Shown here one piece after another: positions 40,310 through 62,564 of a stretch of DNA of 64,000 bases. Source of the stretch: Zingiber officinale (Eukaryota; Streptophyta; Magnoliopsida; Zingiberales; Zingiberaceae); NCBI RefSeq assembly GCF_018446385.1, contig NC_056001.1, forward strand, positions 8,798,672-8,862,671, written 5' to 3'. The position numbers and the translations under genes are program-made. The notes under the pieces were generated by a model. That model saw nothing but the letters and a program-made list of their open reading frames with translations. It made no database searches and had not been told where the DNA came from. Every line of letters begins with the position of its first letter. Position 1 is the stretch's first letter.

Positions 40310-41148
40310 CTTCTGTTTCCTGAGCTTCAACGTTGTAAGAGGCTTCTCCGCCTGAAGGAGATTGATAGTGCGATCATCTTTCTTGGATTAACAACCACCC
40401 CGGTTGTAACCAAGTCAAATCCGGTGCCTCTTCCTTTTCTTGCTTTTTCTTGTTTAAGTTAATTTTATGCAAGTGTTAGTTTAAGAGTTCGAGAAGAGTT
40501 GTTTTGCTTTTTATTTGAAAAAACAAACAAAAAATAAATTGCAACCTATTTAACTAATAGTTATGACATGTCATTTGCTCCATTTGTTGGGGTGAATCAT
40601 CATGGTCAATCTATTATGCTGGGATGTGGATTATTATCAAGCGAAGACTCAACAACTTTCATATGGTTGTTCAAATCTTGGTTGACATGTATGCTCGGAC
40701 ATGCTCCAAAGGCTATAATCACAGACCAATGTCATGCCATGACAATTGCAATTGAAGAGGTATTTCCAAATTCGCATCATCGTCTGTGTCTTTGGCATAT
40801 CATGAAAAAGCTTCCAGTAAAATTAGGTGGTCATGCTCAATACAAAATGATAAAGAAACAATTGAAAAACATTGTTTATGACTCACTTACAGTTGATAAG
40901 TGTGATGAGAATTGGTTGAAAATGATTGAGGAGTTTAATTTGGAAAACAATGATTGGTTGAAATCTTTGCATGAAGAACAGAATAGATGGATACCTATAT
41001 ACGTTAAAGATTGTTGGTGCAATATTCCCTAGGTCAAGGTTGACCTGGTTGACTAAGCTTGAGTCTTATTGTTTGGGTTTCAATGTTTGATAATACATGG
41101 GGATTGCAGGTGCAATTGTCCATGTGAGAAGATTGTGAAGAAGGAAAT

Positions 41149-41420
41149 CCTGGTGAGTGAAGCTAGGTGAAAGACCTGGTGAGTGAAGCGAGACAGTTGG
41201 GGAATCCTGGTGAGTGAAGCCAGGTGAAAGACCTAGTGAGTGAAGCTAGGCAGAAGGAAATCCTGGTGAGTGAAGCCAGGTGAAAGACCTAGTGAGTGAA
41301 GCTAGGCAGTTGGGAATCCTAGTGAGTGAAGCTAGGTGAAAGTCCTGGTGAGTGAAGCCAGTCATATGAGAAGTCCTAGTGAGTGAAGCTAGGTAGAAGG
41401 GAAGTCTTGGTGAGTGAAGT
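41149..41420 (+). repeat. Array of about ten short hairpins in the C LTR
   Basis: The unit is a 5-bp stem, a fixed 9-nt loop TGAGTGAAG, and the complementary 5 bp. Perfect copies alternate CCTGG/CCAGG (41206, 41262) and CCTAG/CTAGG (41231, 41288, 41318, 41375). The first copy (41149, CCTGG/CTAGG) pairs with one G-T, the copy at 41344 has one terminal mismatch (CCTGG/CCAGT), and two others (about 41175 and 41406) are imperfect. Spacing is 25-31 bp. A second array lies at about 51410-51680 in the 3' LTR. Confidence 0.9.
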
Positions 41421-41435
41421 CAGACACAAGAAAAT

Positions 41436-41722
41436 CCAGATGGATCAAGGTTGATCAGACATCTGGTGTTGGAAAGTCCAAGTAGGTCAAAGGGATTGAC
41501 CGGATATTTGGCACGAGGAAATCCAGGTGGATCAAGGTTGATTGGACACCTGGTGGAGATAAGTCCAAGTGGGTCAAGGATGACCGGACACTTGGCACGA
41601 GGAGAAAAGTTCAAGTGGGTCAAAAGTATTGACCAAACACTTGGTGAGGGAGTCCTAGCAGGTCAAGGATGACCGGATGCTAGGCATGATGTACCAACAT
41701 GTCATGGTTGACCGGATGTTGG
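41436..41722 (+). repeat. Array of seven long hairpins with changing stems in the C LTR
   Basis: Each unit is about 30-34 nt with an outer 7-bp stem and an inner GGTCAAGG-type hairpin. Outer stems: CCAGATG/CATCTGG (41436-41466), CCAAGTA/TATTTGG (41478-41511, one G-T), CCAGGTG/CACCTGG (41523-41553), CCAAGTG/CACTTGG (41565-41595), CAAGTG/CACTTG (about 41612-41645), CCTAGCA/TGCTAGG (41654-41684), CCAACAT/ATGTTGG (41694-41722). Spacers such as GCACGAGG recur between units. The 3' LTR has the same series, split by the solo LTR insertion. Confidence 0.92.
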
Positions 41723-41756
41723 TGTAGGGGACTTTGGACTTGTTTTTGGGCAAAAA

Positions 41757-42102
41757 TAGGAGCTGGATCGATCAGCCGATCGATTGGCTCATGCTCAATC
41801 GATCGGCTGATCGATTGGGTGAGTCCCCGCGACAAACCTTCTCCCAATCGATCAGTGGATCAATTGGGGAGAAGTGTCGCATGAACAAAAAGTCTGCCAA
41901 TCGATCGGGTGATCGATTGGGAGTCTCCAATCGATCGAGCGATCAATTGGGAGGTGCGCTTTCACACATTAAGCCCTGAATCGATCAGCCGATCGATCCA
42001 GGCAATTCCAAAGAGCACAGAGGCACTTTGGATCGATCGATCGATCAATCCAAAGCCTCCCCAATCAATTGGGAGCAATCCAATCGATTAGGATTCGACC
42101 GT
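41757..42102. repeat. CGATCGATTGGG palindrome cluster in the C 5' LTR
   Basis: GATCGATC/GATCGATT cores occur in nested, mostly paired arrangement: CAATCGATCGGCTGATCGATTG (about 41798), CCAATCGATCGGGTGATCGATTGG (about 41898), CCAATCGATCGAGCGATCAATTGG (about 41928), AATCGATCAGCCGATCGAT (about 41980), GGATCGATCGATCGATCAATCC (about 42031) and CCAATCAATTGG (about 42061). The 3' LTR cluster is at 54434-54770. Confidence 0.9.
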
Positions 42103-42611
42103 TGGCGCTGGATAAAGACGTTGGCGTGTGATTTCGTCGAAACAACGAGAAGATCTCTCTCAGCTTTCTTCTCTAAGACAACAGATCTTCACAGCGACTT
42201 CTCCACAACTCTCACTCTAGATCTTGAAGGTTCTTGGAGGCTTGTGCTGGTGCACGTCCAAGTCAAGAGGTGAGGAAGAAGCTAGGGTTAGGGTTTCTTG
42301 TGCATATCTTGTAAGCTTTTGCTTGTATAGTATTTCCCTTCCCTTTCTTCTTGTACTGTGAGCGTGTAGGGCTTCTTCGCCTTTGGTAGTTACCGTAAAG
42401 GAGTGATTTCATAGTGGAGGGTGCGTGAGTGTGTGGATCCTTGGACTAGTCACCTCTTCTTGAGGTGGATACCAAGTAAATTCCTTGTGTTAGCATTGTA
42501 GTTGTTGTTTCTTGTATTTTCCGCTGCACATCATCGAAGAAACAAAGCAACGAAGAGCACAAGATCGCGCCGAGCTATTCACCCCCCTCTAGCTACATTT
42601 CGGTCCCAACA

Positions 42612-43691
42612 AGTGGTATCAGAGCAAGGTCGTTCTTCACCGGAATCATCACCGGAAGGGGCAACAAGCTAGAGGGTGTAGAAGTTGGAGCAAATTTTAT
42701 CAAGTCGAATACTTCATCAAATGGCTCAACTTTAAGATGGAATTCCGAGATGGACTCGGATTCGACACAAGGGTGCCTCCACCATATGTATCCACGAGTT
42801 TCGATTCTTGGAAATCAAGAATTAAAAATTTTCTTATGATAGAGATAGAGCAATGGTTTGCTCTAATGGAAGGCTTCAAATCTCCAACAAGTTCAAAGGG
42901 CAAGATCCTCAAAAAGAGCAAATGGAGTCAAGAGCAAATTCAAAAGAGCGAGGCAAATGATAAAATGACCAAACTTTTGGTCAATTTGTTGCTAAGCAAT
43001 ATATTGGCTCAAATTGGAGAATTTGAGGATTCTAAAGAGCTATGGAGCAAGTTGGCCAAGCTTCATGAAGAACCCTCCACTGTACCAGTCCAAGAAAAAT
43101 CTAAAGAGGGTGACTCAATGGAGCAAGATCAAAGGGAAGATGATTTCGAAGTTGAGAGATGCTCAACTTCCGAAGAAGAGGTCCAAGAAGCTTCATCTTC
43201 AAAGGAATACAATGAAAAGGGCAAAGAGAGAGCATACTCTTTGTTTCATGTACAAGATGAAGATGAAGAAGCCTTCACCTCTAGGATTGAGAGGGAGCAA
43301 TTTTCATTGACACCAGATTAAGAAGAAAAAGAAGTCTCCACATCCGGGTCCAGAGAAGAAGAGGATGAAGAAGCTTCCACCTCCACAAGTCAAGTCAAAT
43401 CTATTGGAGGAGCACCATTATCGGAACAAGAGGAAGTTTCTACCTCCAAATCAAAAGGAGAAGATGTCATCCCTACACACGAAGATATAAATGTTTCAAT
43501 TAAAAATAAAAATCATAATATATGTTTTGAGTGTAGGGAACATGTGCATTATATGAGCAAATGCCCTAAAATGGCCAAGAATAAGGGCCAAGTGGCACCA
43601 AAGGGCAAGGAGAAGCCCAAAGAGACCGCTCCCGGAACAAAGAAGAGCAAGGAACACATTGTGTGCTTCTCTTGCAATCAAAGGGGACACT
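42612..43691 (+). pseudogene. gag of element C, one stop, cut by element D
   Basis: After the primer site the frame 42737-43321 encodes a copia-type gag (S-F-D-S-W-K-S-R-I-K-N-F near residue 20, then a helical part with F-E-D-S-K-E-L-W-S-K-L). A highly acidic Glu/Ser-rich tail follows. One stop at 43319-43321 breaks it. The same frame then continues to zinc knuckle CFECREHVHYMSKC (about 43521-43562) and a second knuckle that reads CFSCNQRGHL and is interrupted by the LTR of D at 43692. Confidence 0.85.
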
Positions 43692-46289
43692 TGTTAGGGT
43701 GTATACTAAAAGTCTAGCTTTTGGTATAAACATTTATCTAGAAATAAGAATCACATTGGTCAAATGTCTACATTTATGATAAATGTAGTTGTTCAATTAA
43801 TTTATATTGTAGATAACATGATGTGTGGAGTCACACACAGAGGATCATGTTATCAGTACCTTATAAATTATAAGCAGTAGCTCACGACCAAGATGGAAAG
43901 GAACAAACCATTGGAAGGTCGTAGTGTAATTAGGTATTAGTTTATCTTAACTATATAATTACACTAGTGCACTTATAGTGTATTGAGTAGGACCATTAGA
44001 GATCGTTTCTTTTTATACTGACTTTAAAAAGGAACAAAGACCTCAGTAATTATGGAAGTGTGTGCTCTTAATCCTAATATAATAACAAGCACATATATTT
44101 GATATTTATTGCTTTAATTTATCAATGGGTGAGATTTAGTTCGATAAATCAATAAGCCCGATAAGTTGGGAAATGATATTACTTATAGTGCGTGTTATTG
44201 ATTATAGAAGGAAACTGTGTCCTAGTAATCTATGTTGAGAATGACCTCAAGAGGAGTTCATAAGGATTGTCATGTTAAACCCTGCAGGTAGACTTAGTCC
44301 GACATGACGATAAGGTTGAGTGATACTACTCTTGGACTAAGATATTAATTAAGTGAGTTGTCAGTAACTCATTTAATTAGTGGACATTTATTATCTTAAA
44401 CACAGGAAGACTATCACACTCATAATAAGAAGAAGCCCAAAATGTAATTTGGGATTTGTGCGGTAGTTCAATAATAGTTCTTTAGTGGAATGAATTATTA
44501 TTGATGAAATTAAGTTGTGTGTTCGGGTGAACACGGGAAGCTTAATTTTATCGGGAGACCAAAACCAATTCCTCCTCTCGGTCCCTATTGTAGTATCTTG
44601 TATATAGAGAATTATACCCACCTATACCCACCTTCTTACCCAACCTATAGGGGTCGGCCAAGCCAAGCTTGAAGCTCAAGCTTAGGGCCGGCCAAGCCTA
44701 AAGGTTGAGCCTTAAGGTGGCCGACCAATTGCTTGGAGCCCAAGCTTAGGTGGCCGGCCACATCATATTACAAAGGAATTTTTATTAAAATTAGTTCTTA
44801 TGTGGATATCATGGTTTTAAAAGAGAGTTTGAAATTTAAATATTTCATTTTATAGCTTTCTACAAAAGATTAAGAAAAGATTTGAAATCTTTCTTTATTT
44901 GTAGATTGAAAGGTAGATTTTAATTTTGAGAAAACTTTCATTTTTTAACCATGTTCATGATTTAAAAGAGAGTTTAAAAATTAAATATTTCTTTTATAAA
45001 GCTTCTACAAAAGATTTAATATCTTTCCTTATTTGTAGATTAAAAGAGATTTTAATTTTTAGAGATAACTTTCTTTTTATCCACATGTTTAAAAGAAGGA
45101 TTTTAATTTATAAAATTTCCTTTTTACAAATCACCATGAAGGGAAAAATTAGTGGAGAATTTTTTATAAATTTCCGGAAACAAATAAGGAAGTTTTAATT
45201 TGTGTTTAAAATTTTATTTGCTTGGAGATTTGGTTGTGGCCGGCCATTATAATAATAAAAAGCGAATTGATTTTTAATTAAAGAAAATTTCCTTATCATG
45301 GCAAAAGAATTAAGGAAGGTTTTTATTTAAATTTCCTTATTTGCCAAGACCAAGGATTATAAAAGAGGAGGTAGAGGTGTTTTCATGGCTAACGATTCTA
45401 TTCTTTTTCTCTCCCTCTCTTCCTTGGTGTGGTCGGCCATAGAAGTTTTCTCTTCTTCCTTTTCTTTCTTCTTCATTGGCCGAACCTCATCATCTCATGG
45501 AGCTTGAAGGTGGCCGGATTCTAGCTTGGAGAAGAAGGAGAGAAAGGAAGCATCCCTTGGAGCTTGGTGGTGGCCGAACCTCATCCTTTCATGGAGTTAT
45601 TGTGGTGGCCGAATATTGCTTGGAGAAGAAGGTGGCTTAGGTGGATTCTCATCTCGGTAGATCATTACCCACACAACGCCCAGGATAAGAAGAGGAATAC
45701 GGTAGAAGATCAAGAGGTTATTTGCTTACAAAGAAAGGTATAACTAGTAATTGTTTTCCATATCATACTAGTTTTCTTTGTATAAGTTATTTTTGGAAAT
45801 ACCAAACACAAGAGGCATATAATTCTAGAGTTTTCAGATTTGTTTCGAATTTATGTTTTTGTTTTATTTTTTGAATTTGTGATTCGATTGTTCTTTTTTG
45901 GTTAACTTAGAGTTATTTAAGGAAATTAAATATTAGCTTTCCTTAAAAGACTTTGTCTATGCGGTGGTGGTTGCTCCCATATCCAAGAAGGGCATGTGCC
46001 TCGCCATACAGTCCTGGAAGCCAATTTTGGAAATTAATATTTAATGAAATTAATAACATAGGTGGATTTGAATCAATAGTGTTAAGTTCCGCTTGCGATT
46101 CAAATCTAAACCATTAAGAACAGATAAGTTAAATTTGGAATCAATGATGTTAAGTTCCTTCTGCGATTCCTAATTTAACTTCTAAAGAACACAATAGGTT
46201 ATTTAAGGAAAGGTTCGACACTTGTACAAAAAAATTTTGTACAGTGGAACCGGTACAATTTTCCTAGGACTAACCAACAATTTGTATCA
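43692..46289 (+). repeat. 5' LTR of element D
   Basis: About 2.6 kb, one of three D-family LTRs in the window (see 51817-54225 and 57831-60208). All share the start TGTTAG(G/A)GTGTATACT, the block CTCACGA(C/T)CA(A/T)(G/A)ATGGAAAGG, GGCCGGCC/GTCGGCC palindromes around 44640-44770, and a TGTACAAAA...TTTTGTACA hairpin about 45 bp before the end. TATA-like TTATAAAAGAGGAGG lies at about 45357. The short open frames inside it are not genes. Confidence 0.9.
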
Positions 46290-50930: not shown

Positions 50931-51256
50931 GGGAGATTGTTAGGGTGTATACTAATGAAGTAATCCAGACCTATGGAATTATGAAGGGTATGATACCTTC
51001 GTTATTGTGTTGTGAACAGCGAGTGAAGTTGTAAACAATGTTGGGTAACTCTTTAGGGGGAGAGTTTTTGATGTGTGCCAATAGGGCGAGAATGTGTGGT
51101 TAAGTTAGACCTTCATTACCTGAAGAGGGAGTTTGTCCATTATAAAAGGAGGAGAATGAAGGAAATCATCATTCATATATTGGCATGAAAGGAGTTGAGG
51201 CTATGGGATTAGCCTAAATTAAAAGTGGTATTGTCAAACATCAAAAAGGGGGAGAT

Positions 51257-54200
51257 TGTTGGTACAATATTCCCTAGGTCAAGGTTGACCTAGTTGACTA
51301 AGCTTGAGTTGACTCAAGCTTGAGTCTTGTTGTTTGAGTTTCGATGTTTGATAATACATGAGGATTGCAGGTGCAATTGTCCATGTGAGAAGATTGTGAA
51401 GAAGGAAATCTTGGTGAGTGAAGCCAGGTGAAAGACCTAGTGAGTGAAGCTAGGCAGAAGAAAATCCTGGTGAGTGAAGCCAGGTGAAAGACCTAGTGAG
51501 TGAAGCTAGGCAGAAGAAAATCCTGATGAGTGAAGCCAGATGAAAGACCTAGTGAGTGAAGCTAGGCAGTTGGGAAATCCTAGTGAGTGAAGCTAGGTGA
51601 AAGTCCTGGTGAGTGAAGCCAGGCAGATGAGAAGTCCTAGTGAGTGAAGCTAGGCAGAAGGGAAGTCCTGATGAGTGAAGCCATACACAAGGAAATCCAA
51701 ATGGATTAAGGTTGATCAGACATCTGGTGTTGGAAAGTCCAAGTAGGTATAAGGGATTGACTAGATACTTGGCACGAGGAAATCCTGGTGGATCAAGGTT
51801 GATCGGACACCTGGTGTGTTAGAGTGTATACTGAAAGTCTAAGTTTTTGAAAACATTTATTTTGAATAAAGAATCACATTTGGTTAAATTATCTACATTT
51901 GTTTGTAGTTGTTCAATTAATTTATATTGTAGATAACATAGTATGTGGTATCACATACAGAAGATAATGTTATCAGTACCTTATAAATTATAAACAGTAG
52001 CTCACGACCAAAATGGAAAGGAACAAACCATTGGAAGGTCGTAGTGTAATTAGGTATTAATTTATCTTAACTATATAATTACACTAGTACACTTAGAGTA
52101 TATTGAGTAGGACCATCAGAGGTCGTTCCTTTTATACTGGCTTTATAAAGAAACAAAGACCTCAGTTATTATGGAAGTGTGTGCTCTTAATCCTAATATA
52201 ATAACAAGCACATATATTTGATATTTATTTCTTTAATTTATCAATGGGTGAGATTTAGTTTGATAACTTAATAAGCCCGATAAGTTGGGAAATGATATCA
52301 CTTATAGTGTGTGTTGTTGATTATAGAAGGAAACTGTGTCCTAGTGATCTAGGTTGATAATGTCCCCAAGATGAGCTCATAAGGATTGTCATGTTAAACC
52401 CTGCAGGTGGACTTAGTCCGACATGACGATAAGGTTGAGTGGTACTATTCTTGGACTAAGATATTAATTAAATGAGTTGTCAGTAACTCACTTAATTAGT
52501 GGACATTCGACATCTTAAACGCAGGGAGACTAGCACACTCATAATAAGAAGGAGCCCAAAAATGTAATTTGGGATTGGTGCGGTAGTTCAATAATAGTTC
52601 TCTAGTGGAATGAATTATTATTGATAAAATTAAGTTGTGTGTTCGGGGCGAACACGGGATGCTTAATTTTATCGGGAGACCAAAACCAATTCCTCCTCTC
52701 GGTCCCTATCGTAGCCTCTTATTTATAGAGTACTATACCCACATATACCCACCTTCATACCCATGGTGCAGGGGCCGGCCAAGCTAGCTTGTGGATCAAG
52801 CTAGGGTCGGCCAAACCATTGGTTCATGGGTGGCCGACCCTATCTTGAACCCAAGCTTAGGTGATCGGCCCTATTAAATTAAAAAAGAATTTTAATTTTA
52901 AATTTTTCTTATGTGGAAGATATAATTTATTGGAGTGATTAAAAATTAAAATATATCTTTTATAAGTTTCTACAAAAGATTAAAGAGAGAGATTAAATCT
53001 CTTTCCTTATTTGTAGATTGGAAAGATATTTTATTTTTCTTCTTTGTAAATTATTCACATGTTGAAAAATTAAAATTATAGAAATTTCTTTTTATCAGCC
53101 ATGAAGGGATTTTAAAGGGAAATTTTATTTTTTTAAATTTCCAAAGATAAATAAAGAATTTTTAATTGTTGATTGAAAATTGTCTTGTTTGCTCTCCATG
53201 AGGTGGTCGGCCATGACATGTTTAATTGGGAAATTTTATTTTATTTTTCTTAATTAATTCATGTCAAGGAAAGTTAAGGAAATTTTATTGTAATTATATT
53301 TCCTTATTTGCCAAAGCTAAGGATTATAAAAGAGGGGCTTTTGGGAGCCTTCAAGGCGAACAACCTCTATTATTTTCTCCCTCTTTTCTTCCTTGGTGTG
53401 GCCGGCCACTTCCCTTTCTCTTCTCTCCATCCTTGTGGCCGAAACCTTCTTCCCTCTTGGAGATCAAGTGGTGGCTGGTTTTTAGCTTGGAGAAGAAGGA
53501 GAGAAAACTTACATCCCTTGAAGCTTGGTTGGTGGAAAAAGATCTTCATCTTTTGGAAGCATTGTGCTTGGCCGAAACTTGAAGAAAGGAGAAGAAGGTG
53601 CTTTGGTGGTTTCTCATCTCGGAAGATCGTTGCCCACACAACGTCCGAGGTTAGAAGAGGAATACGGTAGAAGACCTAGAGGTTTTTGCTTACAAAAGAA
53701 AAGGTATACTAGTATTTAATTTCTGCATCATACTAGTTTTATCTTCATGTAAAAATACTAAATACAAGAGGCATGCGATTCTAGTATTTCGAATTTGTTT
53801 TTGATGTTGTGTTCTTTTGTTTTTCTTTTCCTCGTGATTTGATTGTTCTTTTCGGTTGACCTAAAGTTATTTAAGGAAATTAAATATTAGCTTTCCTTAA
53901 AAGGCTTTGTCTAGGCGGTGGTGGTTGTTCCCATATCCAAGAAGGTCATGTGCCCCGCCATGCAGTCCTGGAAGCCAATTTTGGAAATTAATATTTAATG
54001 AAATTAATAACCTAGGTGATTTGGATCGAAAGTGTTAAGTTCCGCAGGAGATCCAAGTCTAAACCTAAAAGAACAAATAAATTAAACTTTGGATCAAATG
54101 TGTTAAGTTCCGCAGGCGATCTAAGTTTAATTTAAAAGAACACATGGTAGCTAGGAAAAGGTTCAGACCTTTGTACAAAATTTTTGTACAGTGGAACCAT

Positions 54201-55292
54201 TAGGTTTTCCGAGTAGCAACCAACATGGTGGAGATAAGTCCAAGTGGGTCAAGGATGACCGGACACTTGGCACGAGGAGAAAAGTCCAAGTGGGTTAAAA
54301 GGATTGACCAGACACTTGGTGAGGGAGTCCTAGCAGGTCAAGGATGACCGGATGCTAGGCATGATGTACCAACAGGTCATGGTTGACCGGATGTTGGTGT
54401 AGGGGACTTTGGACTTGTTTTTGGGTAAAAACAGGAGCTGGATCGATCAACCGATAGATTGGCTCATGCTCAATCGATCGACTGATCGATTGGGTGAGTC
54501 CTCGCGACAAACCTCCTCCCAATTGATCAATGGATCGATTGGGGAGAAGTGTCGCAAGAACAGAAAGTCTCCCAATCGATCGGGTGATCGATTGGGAGCC
54601 TCCAATCGATCGGGCGATCGATTGGGAGGTGCGCTTTCACGCGATAAGCCCTGGATCGATCAGCCGATCGATCCAGGCAATTCCAAAGAGCACAGAGGCA
54701 CTCTGGATCGATTGACATATCAATTCAAAGCCTCTCCAATCAATTAGGAGCAATCTAATTGATTGGGATTCGACCGTTGACGCTGGATAAAGATGTTGGC
54801 ATGTGATTTCGTCGAAACAACGAGAAGATCTCTCTCGGCTTTCTTCTCCAGGACAACAGATTTTCACAGCGACTTCTCCACAGCTCTCACACTAGATCTT
54901 GAAGGTTCTTGGAAGCTTGTGCTGGTGCACGTCCAAGTCAAGAGGTGAGGAAGAAGCTAGGGTTAGGGTTTCTTGTGCATATCTTGTAAGCTTTTGCTTG
55001 TATAGTATTTCCCTTCCCTTTCTTCTTGTACTGTGAGCGTGTAGGGCTTCTTCGCCTTCAGTAGTTACCGTAAAGGAGTGATTTCATAGTGGAGGGGTGC
55101 ATGAGTGTGTGGATCCTTGGACTAGTCACCTCTTATTGAGGTGGATACCAAGTAAATTCCTTGTGTTAGCATTGTAGTTGTTGTTTCTTGTATTTTCCGC
55201 TGCACAAAATCGAAGAAACAAAGCAACGAAGAGCACAAGATCGCGCCGAGCTATTCACCCCCCCCTCCTCTAGCTACATTTCGGTCCCAACA
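51257..55292 (+). repeat. 3' LTR of element C, interrupted by a D-family solo LTR
   Basis: It begins TGTTGGTACAATATTCC after the polypurine tract and ends TCGGTCCCAACA. Removing 51817-54225 and one TGGTG leaves about 1.62 kb, matching the 5' LTR. It differs from the 5' LTR at scattered positions. It keeps the short-hairpin array (about 51410-51680), the long-hairpin array (on both sides of the insertion) and the GATCGATT cluster. Confidence 0.9.
51817..54225 (+). mobile_element. D-family solo LTR with perfect 5-bp duplication
   Basis: 2409 bp, TGTTAGAGTG to AGCAACCAACA, flanked by TGGTG (51812-51816 and 54226-54230). No internal region, primer site or second LTR is present, so it is a solo LTR formed by recombination. 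It interrupts the third long hairpin of the C 3' LTR. The open frames at 53226-53719 lie in its transcript-leader part. Confidence 0.93.
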
Positions 55293-56330
55293 AGGATAAC
55301 TTTTGGGCAGGTATGTCCACATCTCAAAGAAGTGAAAGTATGAATGCTTTTTTTTTATGACTACGCCCATTCTAAAACATCCTTGAAGCAATTTGTTGAG
55401 CAATATGATAATGCTTTGAATAAGAAGATTGAGAATGAAAAACATTTGGATTTTATTTCTTTTAATTCTACCATATCAGTTATTCTTGGTCATTCTATTT
55501 AAAGATAATTTCAAAATACTTACACTAACAACTTATTTAAGTTGTTCCAAGATGAAATAAGAGGATTGATGTTTTGTGATGCCTCATTATTGAAGGAAGA
55601 AGGGACCACTTTAATATTTGAAGTAATAGAAACTATCTTGGGAAAAAATAGAGAACCTGTAAGAGAAGTTTCCTTTAGGGTACATTATACAGAGTTAGAT
55701 TGCAAATTGAAATGTGTGTGTCGTCTATTTAAGTTTTGGGAAATATTATATAGGCATGTGATCAAAGTGTTGATAAGGATGAAGGTGACTGAGGTTCCTA
55801 TGAATTATATTATGGATCAATGGTGCAAAGATATTAAGCGTGGGTATCAAAGTATCAGTAACATCTATGATGATTATGTTTGTGATGAAGAAAGACATCG
55901 GTATAATATTCTCACTCCATTAATACAAGAGATTCAACAACTTGGTGCAAAAAATGATGACAGCTGTTCTATGTTGGTGGAAATCTTGAAAGACACGAAG
56001 GGAAAACTGATTGTTAATGATCTTGAGCATTCAAGGGCTGAACAACTGAAATGAGTATCTACATCTGGTGCAAAAGTAATACACTCTCCATTAAAAGTAA
56101 AATCTCGAGGTCGTCCCCCCACAAAGAGAAAATAATCTAAGATTGAACAAATTGTGAAGAAATCAGTTGCAAAGGCCCGAAAAGAAGGTAAGTGATACAT
56201 ATAATAGATACGTAAAATAATTATGCAGTATTGTTTTGTTCAAGTATATTCATGTGATTGTAGCTAGTCTAAATTTTTTTTCTAATCTTTCTTACAGCAG
56301 TAAAGATTGGAAAGTCGATGAGTTGATTGT

Positions 56331-57830: not shown

Positions 57831-60208
57831 TGTTAGAGTGTATACTAAAAGCCTAGCTTTTGGTATAAACATTTATCTAGAAATAAGAATCACATTGGTC
57901 AAATATCTACATTTATGATAAATGTAGTTATTCAATTAATTTATATTGTAGATAACATGGTGTGTGGTGTCACACACAGAGGATCATGTTATCAGTACCT
58001 TATAAATTATAAACAGTAACTCACGATCATAATGGAAAGGAACAAACCATTGGAAGGTCGTAGTGTAATTAGGTATTAGTTTATCTTAACTATATAATTA
58101 CACTAGTACACTTAGAGTGTATTGAGTAGGACCATTTGAGGTCGTTTCTTTTATACTGGCTTTATAAAGAAACAAAGACCTCGGTTATTATGGAAGTGTG
58201 TACTCTTAATCCTAATATAATAACAAGCACATATATTTGATATTTATTTCTTTAATTTATCAATGGGTGAGATTTAGTTCGATAAATCAATAAGCCCGAT
58301 AAGTTGGGAAATGATATCACTTATAGTGTGTGTTGTTGATTATAGAAGGAAACTGTGTCCTAGAGATACTAGGTTGATAATGTCCTCAAGAGGAGCTCAT
58401 AAAGATTGTCATGTTAAACCCTGCAGGTGGACTTAGTCCGACATGATAATAAGGTTGAGTGGTACTACTCTTGGACTTAGATATTAATTAAATGAGTTGT
58501 CAGTAACTCACTTAATTAGTGGACATTCGATATCTTAAACACAGGGAGACTAACACGCTCATAATAAGAAGGAGCCCAAAAATATAATTTGGGATTGGTG
58601 CGGTAGTTCAATAATAGTTCTCTAGTGGAATGAATTATTATTGATAAAATTAAGTTGTGTGTTCGGGGCGAACACGGGATGCTTAATTTTATCGGGAGAC
58701 CAAAACCAATTCCTCCTCTCGGTCCCTATCGTAGCCTCTTATTTATAGAGTACTATACCCACCTTCATACCCATGTTATAGGGGTCGGCCAAGCTAGCTT
58801 GGTTCATGGGTGGCCGGCCCTAGCTTGAACCCAAGCTTAGGTGGCCGACCCTATTTAATTAAAGAATTTTAATTTTAAAATTTTCTTATGTGAAAGATAT
58901 AATTTATTGAAGAGATTAAAAATTAAAATATCTCTTTTATAAGTCTCTACAAAAGATTAAAGAAAGAGATTAAATCTCTTTCCTTATTTGTAGATTAGAA
59001 AGGATATTTTATTTCTCTTCTTTATAAATTATTCACATGTTGAAAAATTAAAATTATAGAAATTTCTTTTTATAAACCAATCATAAAAGGGATAAAAATT
59101 ATTGGAGAAATTTTTTATAAAATTTCTGGAGACAAATTAGGAAGTTTTAATTAATTAAAACTCTCCTTGTTTTGTTTTTAAAGTGGTCAGCCATTGTGTT
59201 AAAGAAGAAAATTGTTTTAATTAAAATAATTTTTCTTTACATGACAAAAGAATTAAGGAAATTTTGTAATTAAATTTCCTAATTTGCCTAGGCCAAGGAA
59301 TATAAAAGAAGAGGTGAGGGTGCCTTCATGGGAACAACCTCTATTATTTTTCCTCCCTCTTTTCCTTGGTGTGGTGGCCGGCCATCCTCTACCTTTCTTC
59401 CTCTTTTGTGGTGGCCGAAACTTATCTCTTGCTTGGAGTTCTTGTGGTGGCCGGATACTACTTGGAGAAGAAGAAGAAGAAGGAGAGAAAGCTTGTATCC
59501 CTTGGAGTTTGGTTGGTGTTTTGTTCTTCGTCCTTGGTGAAGCTTCTTTGTGATTGGCCGAACCTAGCTAGGAGAAGAAGAAGGTGCTTGGTGGTTTCTC
59601 ATCTCGGAAGATCGTTGCCCACACAACGTCCGAGGTTAGAAGAGGAATACGGTAGAAGATCAAGAGGTTTTTCTACAAGGTATAACTAGTAAATTTTATT
59701 TCCGCATCATGCTAGTTATTTATGGAAATAATACCAAATACAAGAGGCTTACGTTCTAGAATTTCGAATATATTTTTTTCGAAGTTGTGTTCTTTTGTTT
59801 CTTTCTTTTCCTTGTGATTTGATTGTTCTCTTTGGTTAACCTAAAGTTATTTTAGGAAATTAAATATTAGCTTTCTATTAAAGGTTTTGTCTAGTCGGTG
59901 GTGGTTGCTCCCATATCCAAGAAGGTCATGTGCCTCGCCACGTCAGTACTGGAAACCTTTTATGGAAATTAATATTTAATGGAATTAATAACTTAAGGAG
60001 ACTTGGGTCGAACGTGTTAAGTTCCGCAGGAGATCCAAGTCAAAACCTAAAAGAACAAATAGATTAAGTTTTGGATCAAACGTGTTAAGTTCCGCAGGCG
60101 ATCCAAAATTTAATTTAAAAGAACACATGGTAGCTAGGAAAAGGTTCAGACCTTTGTACAAAATTTTTGTACAGTGGAACCTATAGGTTTTCCGAGTAGC
60201 AACCATCA
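57831..60208 (+). mobile_element. Second D-family solo LTR, 5-bp duplication GGGGT
   Basis: 2378 bp, TGTTAGAGTG to AGCAACCATCA, flanked by GGGGT (57826-57830 and 60209-60213). It inserts 38 bp inside LTR F. The TGTACAAAATTTTTGTACA hairpin is at 60155-60173. No coding gene is supported; the frame at 59284-59553 is leader sequence. Confidence 0.93.
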
Positions 60209-60774
60209 GGGGTGTGAATAGCCGCCCCAAATCGCTCGTTTCTTTCTACAAATCAGGTTAGCGCAGCGGAAAAATAACAATAGAAACGTAAATGGAGAAA
60301 TCAAACCTTAGACGCAGCGATGTAACGAGGTTCGGAGATGATACTCCTACTCCTCGGCGTGTCCGTAAGGTGGACGAGCCCTATCAATCCGTCGGTGGAT
60401 GAGTCCCCGGAGAACCGGCTAATATCAACTCCTTGTGGGTGGAGAAACCTCGCCACAATCACTTGCAACAGCAAGCTAAGAGTACAACAGAATACAAGAA
60501 GTAAATACAATGAATGTAACAATACAAGCTTGCCTTCTTGTCGTCGACTGAAGTCCTGGAAGCAGCAACTTCACGGACGAATGCCAACAAGCAACTCAGC
60601 CGAAAGAAGCTCACGCGGGGCTTCGGAAGTGAGCTCAACAAAGCTCAGTCAAAGCTTAGCAGCACCAAGAACAGGAAGAAGGAAGAAGAAGATTCACCGA
60701 AGTCCTGTAGCCCTCTTTTATACCTGCGAAGAAGAAGAGCAGAGAACTAGCCGTTGCGTCGCAACGGCTAGATT

Positions 60775-61075
60775 CCTGATCGGTCCATGGTCCGATCAGG
60801 GAACCTCCTGATCGGTCCACGCCCTCAATTCCTCTCCTCTGATCGGCGTGGACCGATCAGGAACCTCCCGATCGGTCCATAGACCGATCGTCGGCCGATC
60901 GATCGCCGGCCGATCGGGTGGATCGGCCAGACCGATCCACGGCTTCTTCGCGGGTTGCGTTGCCTCGATCGGTCTCGCCGCATCGATTCTGTCAGATGAG
61001 CCATCGATCGATTACGATCGGTCACCGATCAGGCAACGCAGATCACCGGATCGGTCACGGACCGATCCAAACTTC
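60775..61075. repeat. GATCGGTCC palindrome cluster in LTR F
   Basis: GATCGGTCCATGGTCCGATC (about 60779), GATCGGTCCACG paired with CGTGGACCGATC (about 60810 and 60846), GATCGGTCCATAGACCGATC (about 60870), CGGCCGATCGATCGCCGGCC (about 60894), and GATCGGTCACGGACCGATC (about 61050) form nested pairs. The same motif recurs in the internal part at 62565-62730. Confidence 0.88.
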
Positions 61076-61089
61076 TCACCCTAAACCTA

Positions 61090-61730
61090 AGGCTTCCACA
61101 CCAACATCCGATCAACCTTGACCTGTTGGTACATCATCCCTAGCATCTGGTCACCCTTGACCTAGCACCCCGCTAAGTGTCCGGTCAATCCCTTTGACCC
61201 ACTTAGACTTTCCACACCGGATGTCCGATCATCCTCGATCCATCTGGATTTTCCTCTTCGTGCCAAGCATCCGATCACCCTTGATCTACTTGGACTTTCC
61301 AACACCGGATGTCCGATCACCCTTGATCCATCCGGATTTTCCCTTGCATGGCTTCACTCACCGTGACTTTCACCTAGCTTCACTCACTAGGGTTTTCACC
61401 GGCTTTCTCACCAGGATTTCCACACCGCCTAACATCCCAGTTAGGACTTTCCCACTGCCTGGCTTCACTCACCAGGACTTTCCACACTGCCTAACATCCC
61501 AGTTAGGACTTTCTCACTGCCTGGCTTCACTCACCAGGACTTTCCCTCGTGCCAAGCTCCCTGCTTGGACTTCTCCGTGCCAAGTCTCCATACTTGGACT
61601 TTTCCAGTGCCAAGTCTCCATACTTGGACTTTTCCAGTGCCAAGCTCCCTGCTTGGACTTTTCTGTTGCCAAGTCTCCATACTTGGACTTTTTCCCGAAT
61701 CAGGTCAACCTTGACCTACGGTTGCCCCAA
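61090..61730 (-). repeat. Hairpin arrays of LTR F with stems different from C
   Basis: On the - strand, long units include CTAAGTG/CACTTAG, CCGGATG/CATCCGG and CCAAGTA/TGCTTGG (one G-T), each around a GGTCAAGG or GATCAAGG inner hairpin (61120-61345). Short units include CCTGG-TGAGTGAAG-CCAGG (about 61459 and 61520), CTAG-TGAGTGAAG-CTAG (about 61375) and CCTAAC-TGGGAT-GTTAGG (about 61428 and 61490). This is the same layout as the C LTR with other stem sequences. The 179-codon frame here is a shadow of the array. Confidence 0.85.
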
Positions 61731-62564
61731 TAATCTCCCAAACATCTATTCTTGTCCCATATCAAGAATACAACTCTTCCACGAGTATCAAACATCAACA
61801 TGCAACTCAACTAGGTCAACCTTGACCTAAGGTTGCACCGACAATCTTCCTAAGTCAAACATCAAAATACAACTCGAGTCAGGTCAACCTTGACCTAAGG
61901 TTGCACCAACAATCTCCCCCTTTTTGATGTTTGACAAAACCCATAATCAAGTTAGGTTAACCCGACAACCTAACTTAGGTTTTCCAACCATCTTCCAATG
62001 TCCAATGTTCTTTCCTTGAACATTCTCTGGACATTCTCCCCTTAGGTTAACCCGATAACCTAACTTGGGTTCTCCAATAATTCTCCCCCTTTTTGACACA
62101 CATCAAAAAGAATTCCAATGTTCTTCCTTGAACATTCCTTGACATTCTTCCCCTAGCTTAGGTTAATCCGATAACCTAACTTGGGTTCTCCAATAATTCT
62201 CCAATGAACACTCTCCCCTTTTTGACACACATCAAAAAGAAAAAGAGGGTATCAAGGTCAAAAGTTTATTCCTAATGAAAGTCCCATACCTTTCATTGAA
62301 ACTCTTAATTTCCCCCTTGATACTAAACTCAACAATCAACTTAGTGACAATCCCATATCACTAATCCTCAAAAGTCTTAAGGAGTAAAAACTCCCCCTAA
62401 AAGTCAACTCCCCCTTGACAATTAGGTAAAACTCCCCCTAAAGGTCAACTCCCCCTTGACCATTGCACCAACAATGTCTTTGTGAGTTCCAAACCTTTAG
62501 AAATCCAAAAACACCATTTCCATAACTGAAATTTCAGACAACAGCTGAAAAATCAGAAATTCGG

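Follow-up and report, generated by a model that had tools for sequence, protein, structure and literature searches.

A run of tandem hairpins in the genome of Zingiber officinale raises the question of why the two arms of a stem should change together from one unit to the next. We analysed a window of 64,000 nucleotides (contig NC_056001.1, positions 8,798,672 to 8,862,671), in which a sequence-only reading had described seven such hairpins at 41436..41722, with a constant inner core ending in TGACC or TGATC and differing 7-bp outer stems, and had taken the matched change of the arms to mean that pairing itself is kept. All seven units were recovered at this place, and the phenomenon proved larger than that reading had stated.

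Architecture of the hairpin array

The seven long hairpins lie on the + strand, with the outer stems CCAGATG/CATCTGG (41436..41466), CCAAGTA/TATTTGG with one G.T (41478..41511), CCAGGTG/CACCTGG (41523..41553), CCAAGTG/CACTTGG (41565..41595), TCAAGTG/CACTTGG with an outermost T.G (unit Y, 41611..41644), CCTAGCA/TGCTAGG (unit Z, 41654..41684) and CCAACAT/ATGTTGG (unit W, 41694..41722). Each outer stem is 7 bp long and holds at most one G.T, as had been claimed, but the stem given for unit W is that of the window copy and a few others only. Most aligned copies of this unit read CCAACA-GGTCA...TGACC-GGA-TGTTGG, with a stem ACCAACA/TGTTGGT that is one base wider per side, and in the window copy the plan of inner stem and bulge is altered.

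The long units share one plan, in which a 7-bp outer stem of free sequence encloses an inner stem GRTCA/TGAYC of five pairs (six in some) and a loop (AGGT, AAGGGAT, AGGGAG and others). The inner stem stacks on the outer stem along the 5' arm; the 3' arm carries a 3-nt bulge, which reads GGA or AGA, or AAA in the case of unit Y (41611). Counting units with at least six of seven outer Watson-Crick pairs and an exact core, a selection that says little on decayed units, we obtained 345 units with both stems, in which the bulge was GGA in 225 and AGA in 94, the bulge bases were 573 G, 459 A, 2 T and 1 C (1035 in total) and the loop bases 870 G, 646 A, 254 T and 4 C (1774 in total).

A scan of 41425 to 41730 for perfect 7-bp stems whose arms are 15-22 nt apart found five that do not overlap; 1000 dinucleotide shuffles yielded 0.13 such stems on average and never more than 2, which rules out chance palindromes. 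Folding both strands of the array as RNA, a check proposed with the sequence-only reading, gave z-scores of -5.0 (+ strand) and -8.0 (- strand). A pattern for the long unit with five of the seven outer bases per arm left free matched 34,618 places in the genome. The number of dimers of the CCAGATG and CCAAGTA units varies per array (L061, L095 and others), and in most of the 35 listed loci the last units, CCAAGTG, CCTAGC- and ACCAAC-, follow in unchanged order.

Two further sets of inverted repeats flank the long units. Upstream are about nine or ten short hairpins of the form CCTRGT-gagtgaa-GCYAGG (41149..41424, + strand), some of them decayed, in which the third pair is G-C and A-T by turns. 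Downstream are palindromes centred on ATCGAT with differing outer arms (41773..42055, no strand assigned), which resemble the Tnd-1 repeated motif in the Sirevirus motif table of PMC2829016.

The host element and its setting

Judged by the signatures of its polypurine tract (PPT) and primer binding site (PBS) junction, the element that carries the array appears to be a Sirevirus-type Copia. Its 5' LTR (LTR A, 41012..42611, + strand) is 1600 bp long with TG...CA termini, its ends reading TGTTGG...CCAACA, and its 3' LTR (LTR B, 51257..55292, + strand) is split by a solo LTR. AAGAT precedes LTR A and AGGAT follows LTR B, which look like a target duplication with one later change. The Sirevirus 5' junction, CA / A(T/G)TGG / TATCAGAGC, is present at 42610..42625 (+ strand) as CA-AGTGG-TATCAGAGC, the whole reading CAAGTGGTATCAGAGC. 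The Sirevirus PPT AGGGGGAG, followed by AT and the TG of the LTR (start TGTTGG), stands before LTR B (51247..51254, + strand) and at 61914-61921 beside a third LTR, copy C. PPT octamers are multiple, at 51055-51062 and 51247-51254 before LTR B and six times on the - strand, from 61914 to 62456, before copy C. We also saw TTCACCCCCCTCTAG just before the LTR end and the arms TCAAACATC/GATGTTTGA, which may correspond to the C-rich integrase signal and the inverted repeat around the PPT known from Sireviruses. The coding match is thin: one of five fragments matched Retrotran_gag_2 (copia gag) with an E-value of 5e-4, under the cutoff of that profile, and the other four gave no Pfam hit at an E-value of 0.001.

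A weak TATA-like motif, GATAAA, lies 3' of the arrays (42111..42116, + strand), and in copy C TATAAAAG near 60722 (- strand) reads as such a motif. If these mark promoters, the arrays, which lie upstream of them, belong to U3; they are probably, then, near the 3' end of the element RNA. Copy C itself (60210..61911, - strand, lower end approximate) comes from a divergent family; its array follows the same plan and includes a third type of hairpin, CCAAGT-atggag-ACTTGG. In the haplotype-resolved ginger assembly of 3.09 Gb, Copia elements are reported to make up 33.66% (PMC8342452).

Several neighbouring insertions were recorded in the window. The element with LTRs A and B sits inside a MULE-transposase-like gene, presumably of FAR1 type: a PF10551 match (E-value 4e-26) is located just before the target site and a reading of NFWAGMSTSQRSESMNAFF follows LTR B (40568-41011 and 55298-55357, + strand). 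Within the LTR B array lies a 2.4-kb solo LTR of another element (TGTTAGAG...CCAACA; 51817..54225, + strand, or 51812-54230 with its 5-bp duplication TGGTG), which starts two bases to the right of hairpin 3, the duplication overlapping the stem end. A weak palindrome preference has been reported for insertions of plant LTR retrotransposons (PMC6911290). Relatives of this solo LTR occur at about 43784-46167 and, abutting copy C, near 60208. The start of copy C (61911-61690, - strand) is present as three tandem near-copies, each with the palindrome AGGTCAAGGTTGACCT. As this palindrome contains the inner core of the array, and as the unit W stem ACCAACA/TGTTGGT resembles the LTR termini, the units may derive from LTR ends. 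Among the genome matches listed, many same-strand pairs lie about 5.0-6.0 kb apart, a spacing that points to many of the array copies belonging to short, perhaps non-autonomous, elements.

Covariation of the stem arms between lineages

We surveyed units in 126 loci and the window, without requiring outer pairing and excluding loci L001 and L029 from unit counts as repeats of the window, which yielded 562 distinct unit contexts. Outer pairs 1 to 7 were each Watson-Crick in 74-84% of these contexts, and pair 8 in 13%; for each of the seven outer pairs, the position with the highest mutual information was its partner. For differences between hairpin strings we used only strings with five or more of the seven outer pairs (294 of 386 strings, from 457 of 562 contexts), G.U being accepted as a pair, a filter that leans to paired states; of the two-site differences in the outer arms, those at partner sites made up 5 of 5 for strings in at least three contexts (0.4 expected), 7 of 14 for strings in at least two (1.1 expected) and 26 of 126 for all strings (9.7 expected).

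We then placed the changes on a tree built from 265 non-stem columns of 97 distinct segments (of 105), using only arrays with a recognisable last unit. In units Y, Z and W, changes on the same branch amounted to 10.8 at the 21 partner site pairs and 1.55 at the 126 non-partner pairs (rough Fisher test, 2.5e-7), although pair 6 of W and pair 2 of Z changed repeatedly on the tree and the true independent events may be fewer. Shifting the registers by 1-3 columns left 0 to 0.55 co-changes. Adding a fourth unit, X, gave 18.1 partner and 8.55 non-partner co-changes, partly from misaligned unit types. The inner pairs also covary, with fewer events. On internal branches, stem sites changed at 7.0 per 1000 site-branches against 26.4 for non-stem sites, a rate inflated by alignment noise. 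By the measure of partner against non-partner co-changes on the tree, the covariation of the long units thus exceeds a phylogeny-aware null; in the short GAGTGAA hairpins the partner excess is weak (37 of 249 against 22.6 expected). The matched change of the arms is real, and the pairing itself is kept, as the sequence-only reading had concluded from the window's own units; pairing across the 562 contexts, string differences, co-changes on the tree and counts in the genome all bear this out.

Timing of the changes relative to insertion

A comparison of 5' with 3' LTRs shows what happens once an element has inserted. In 18 LTR pairs (84 units, 588 outer pairs), of which all but the window's own were assigned from spacing and strand only (with 8-11 kb between the members of L088/L089 and of L042/L045), we counted 18 single and 0 double differences, the single ones being 6 G.U, 9 A.C and 3 other. 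There was no sign of restored pairing in these resident copies, and no excess of G.U over A.C, as neutral decay would give. The copies nearest to the window (L001-L028), read by eye, carry private one-arm changes at individual units; one locus, L038, contains two arrays. Independent change of the arms among copies, which the sequence-only reading had held to speak against kept pairing, is therefore seen after insertion and not between lineages. Covariation between lineages, taken with independent change between the LTRs of one element, indicates that pairing is kept while elements replicate.

Strand preference of the intermediate states

A stem that passes from C-G to T-A goes through T.G or C.A, and these two states are each other's opposite strand. 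At pair 2 of unit Y, the genome held 13,505 C-G, 1,302 T-A, 1,020 T.G and 183 C.A (odds ratio 94), where about 14 T-A would be expected under independence. On either arm the C that changes stands before AA, so that mutation pressure on the two should be nearly matched, and the surplus of T.G over C.A favours sense-strand RNA over DNA cruciforms. Among the matches listed, a same-strand neighbour at 3-10 kb, as for the two LTRs of one insertion, accompanied 42 of 100 T.G units and 6 of 100 C.A units. At the inner pair, the 34,618 genomic units included 1,485 G.T and 440 A.C, and with an AGA bulge only, where both arms read as CHH context, 514 G.T and 178 A.C. Single breaks on the tree were G.U in 12.1 and A.C in 4.0 cases on internal branches and 39.5 and 26.0 on terminal ones, where the excess of G.U is small, since non-stem transition rates lean the same way at about 1.15-1.3 to 1.

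Sampled variants gave a smaller bias or none. Among long-unit single-site variants under the same string filter, there was no G.U bias in strings seen once (26 G.U, 28 A.C) and a small one in shared strings (9 and 4). A census of pair states, in which the filter favours G.U, gave 122 G.U and 65 A.C for single-occurrence strings, 20 and 3 for those occurring twice and 2 and 3 for those occurring three times or more. The short GAGTGAA hairpins had no excess of G.U over A.C (42 and 40 for those seen once, 13 and 10 for 2-4 times, 5 and 5 for five or more). The strand bias consequently rests mainly on the copy-number counts, which are weighted heavily by a few successful lineages, and the better folding z-score of the - strand runs counter to a sense-strand reading. 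On balance, the G.U and A.C counts lend moderate support to sense-strand RNA.

Mechanisms that could keep the arms matched

The reading we favour, with somewhat better than even confidence, is that the array consists of sense-strand RNA stem-loops in U3 that are kept by selection during the replication cycle. Between the two mechanisms that the sequence-only reading had offered, the evidence agrees better with selection on RNA structure than with copying through a hairpin intermediate, against which stand the side of the bulge, the orientation of the loops, the predominance of transitions and the genome-wide excess of G.U over A.C.

Under hairpin copying, a polymerase would switch to the opposite arm during reverse transcription or replication and so match the arms without selection. 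Template switching has been published as a source of compensatory changes in RNA stems (PMC8794818), compensation occurred between lineages and not between the LTRs of one element, reverse transcription taking place only in the first case, and one double transversion was seen (L079, C-G to A-T). However, in the 275 distinct units with at least six of seven outer Watson-Crick pairs and an exact core, a set that tells little of decayed units, the 3-nt bulge kept to one side of the loop, and by eye none of the 265 loops listed for these 275 looked inverted. Inverted loops would be C-rich, whereas the 345 units held only 4 C in 1774 loop bases. The constant bulge side and the C-poor loops together rule out loop-inverting template switching, and the one-sided bulge, like the uninverted loops, counts against hairpin copying. 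Further, of the 11 changes from one Watson-Crick pair to another with a count of 20 or more over the 20 reconstructions, 10 were transitions, for which G.U can serve as the intermediate, about a quarter of single breaks were neither G.U nor A.C and hence transversions, and the excess of T.G over C.A is not predicted. As event numbers are small, we still allow hairpin copying a real, if minor, share of the probability.

Somewhat less probable still is that the units act as DNA, as palindromic binding sites or cruciform enhancers upstream of the promoter. The core GGTCAA/TTGACC, which we take to be a W-box, and the position of the array upstream of a TATA-like motif would fit such a role. The core nevertheless reads GGTCA/TGACC and GATCA/TGATC by turns, so that TTGACC is gone in many units while pairing is kept, and W-box sites are ruled out as the constraint. 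Repeated motifs of Sireviruses have been published as possibly regulatory (PMC2829016), but the bulge makes the units asymmetric, and a cruciform should accept T.G as readily as C.A, against the counts of 1,020 and 183 at pair 2 of unit Y.

We consider it improbable that the hairpins are kept as a template for host small RNAs, entering miRNA-like processing and silencing in the way suggested for maize Sireviruses. Hairpins in Copia LTRs do correlate with small RNAs in maize (PMC10760457), but a structure that only drew silencing should be lost and not repaired, stems of 7+5 bp would be short for dicing, and small-RNA production can be a consequence of the hairpins without being the reason for their upkeep. 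Turnover of units, by which paralogous units with pre-matched arms would swap through unequal exchange and mimic compensation, is very improbable, for although unit number differs between LTRs and some apparent double changes in unit X are different unit types aligned, the order and flanks of units Y, Z and W mark them as orthologous, and stems such as CTAAGTG/CACTTAG and CTTAGCA/TGCTAAG match none of the other common unit types listed; replacement by paralogous units is accordingly rejected for Y, Z and W on the tree and does explain part of unit X.

A proposed sense-strand RNA array in U3 and its implications

On the reading we favour, the array would form a string of RNA stem-loops on the sense strand; placed in U3 of the Sirevirus-type Copia LTR, it would lie close to the 3' end of the element RNA. 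Selection in the replication cycle would remove elements with broken stems, and base pairs would change by way of G.U. Less securely, the purine bulges (mostly GGA or AGA) and G-rich loops on stems of free sequence may together, in their regular display, offer binding sites to a protein that recognises shape and unpaired G. Candidate binders are the zinc knuckle of the element's own Gag, in packaging or RNA stability, and a host RNA-binding protein; naming either is a guess. A function of the array at the RNA level is thus what we favour, and it is a more doubtful, though possible, extension that Sirevirus-type LTRs at large carry a needed repeated RNA module with a shape code of free stems, one-sided purine bulges and G-rich loops, for instance as serial sites for Gag zinc knuckles.

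If this holds, the LTR palindromes of Sireviruses, so far read as DNA cis elements, would be RNA structures that the elements cannot lose despite silencing. More than 34,000 genomic units, a neutral control in the comparison of 5' with 3' LTRs and a strand test make the choice between DNA element and RNA structure answerable by counting and reporters. Direct evidence of compensatory evolution also bears on why miRNA-like hairpins persist despite silencing, as asked in PMC10760457.

Comparison with known systems

Bousios and colleagues reportedly described, in 2016, a palindrome-rich cis region of Sirevirus LTRs. The statement of the sequence-only reading that no LTR module like this was described does not hold, since clusters of hairpin-forming palindromes have been published for Sirevirus LTRs (PMC2829016, PMC10760457). 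As for the compensatory change and the strand bias, our search of the open-licence literature turned up no report of either for LTR hairpins among the papers listed, the palindromic and hairpin-forming nature of these LTR regions being already known.

The miRNA-like hairpins of maize are, as here, predicted RNA hairpins concentrated in Copia LTRs, where they occur with small RNAs and where cis-regulatory palindromes were pointed to (PMC10760457). That study reports on hairpin stability and small RNAs, and no word in covari- occurs in its main text. The template-switch account of hairpin maintenance likewise explains coupled changes of the arms, and its model permits inverted loops and compensation at multiple sites (PMC8794818), of which the units here offer no clear case.

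The closest system is that of the repeated-motif (RM) boxes of Sireviruses, clustered palindromic motifs upstream of the TATA box which are described as a hallmark of these LTRs (Bousios 2010, PMC2829016). The published motifs are similar short palindromes, with a CGG-CCG core in all but Tnd-1, and it is this stated exception that the ATCGAT palindromes of the window resemble. Like the RM boxes as described there, the units of the array are multi-copy, hairpin-capable palindromes that precede the TATA box and occupy the upstream half of an LTR, and the element has Sirevirus PPT and PBS junctions. Unlike those highly similar palindromes, the seven long units have unit-specific stems and no CGG-CCG core, their ends being CC...GG with GRTCA/TGAYC inside; they carry a one-sided 3-nt bulge, and their stems vary by unit and by lineage with the partner base following.
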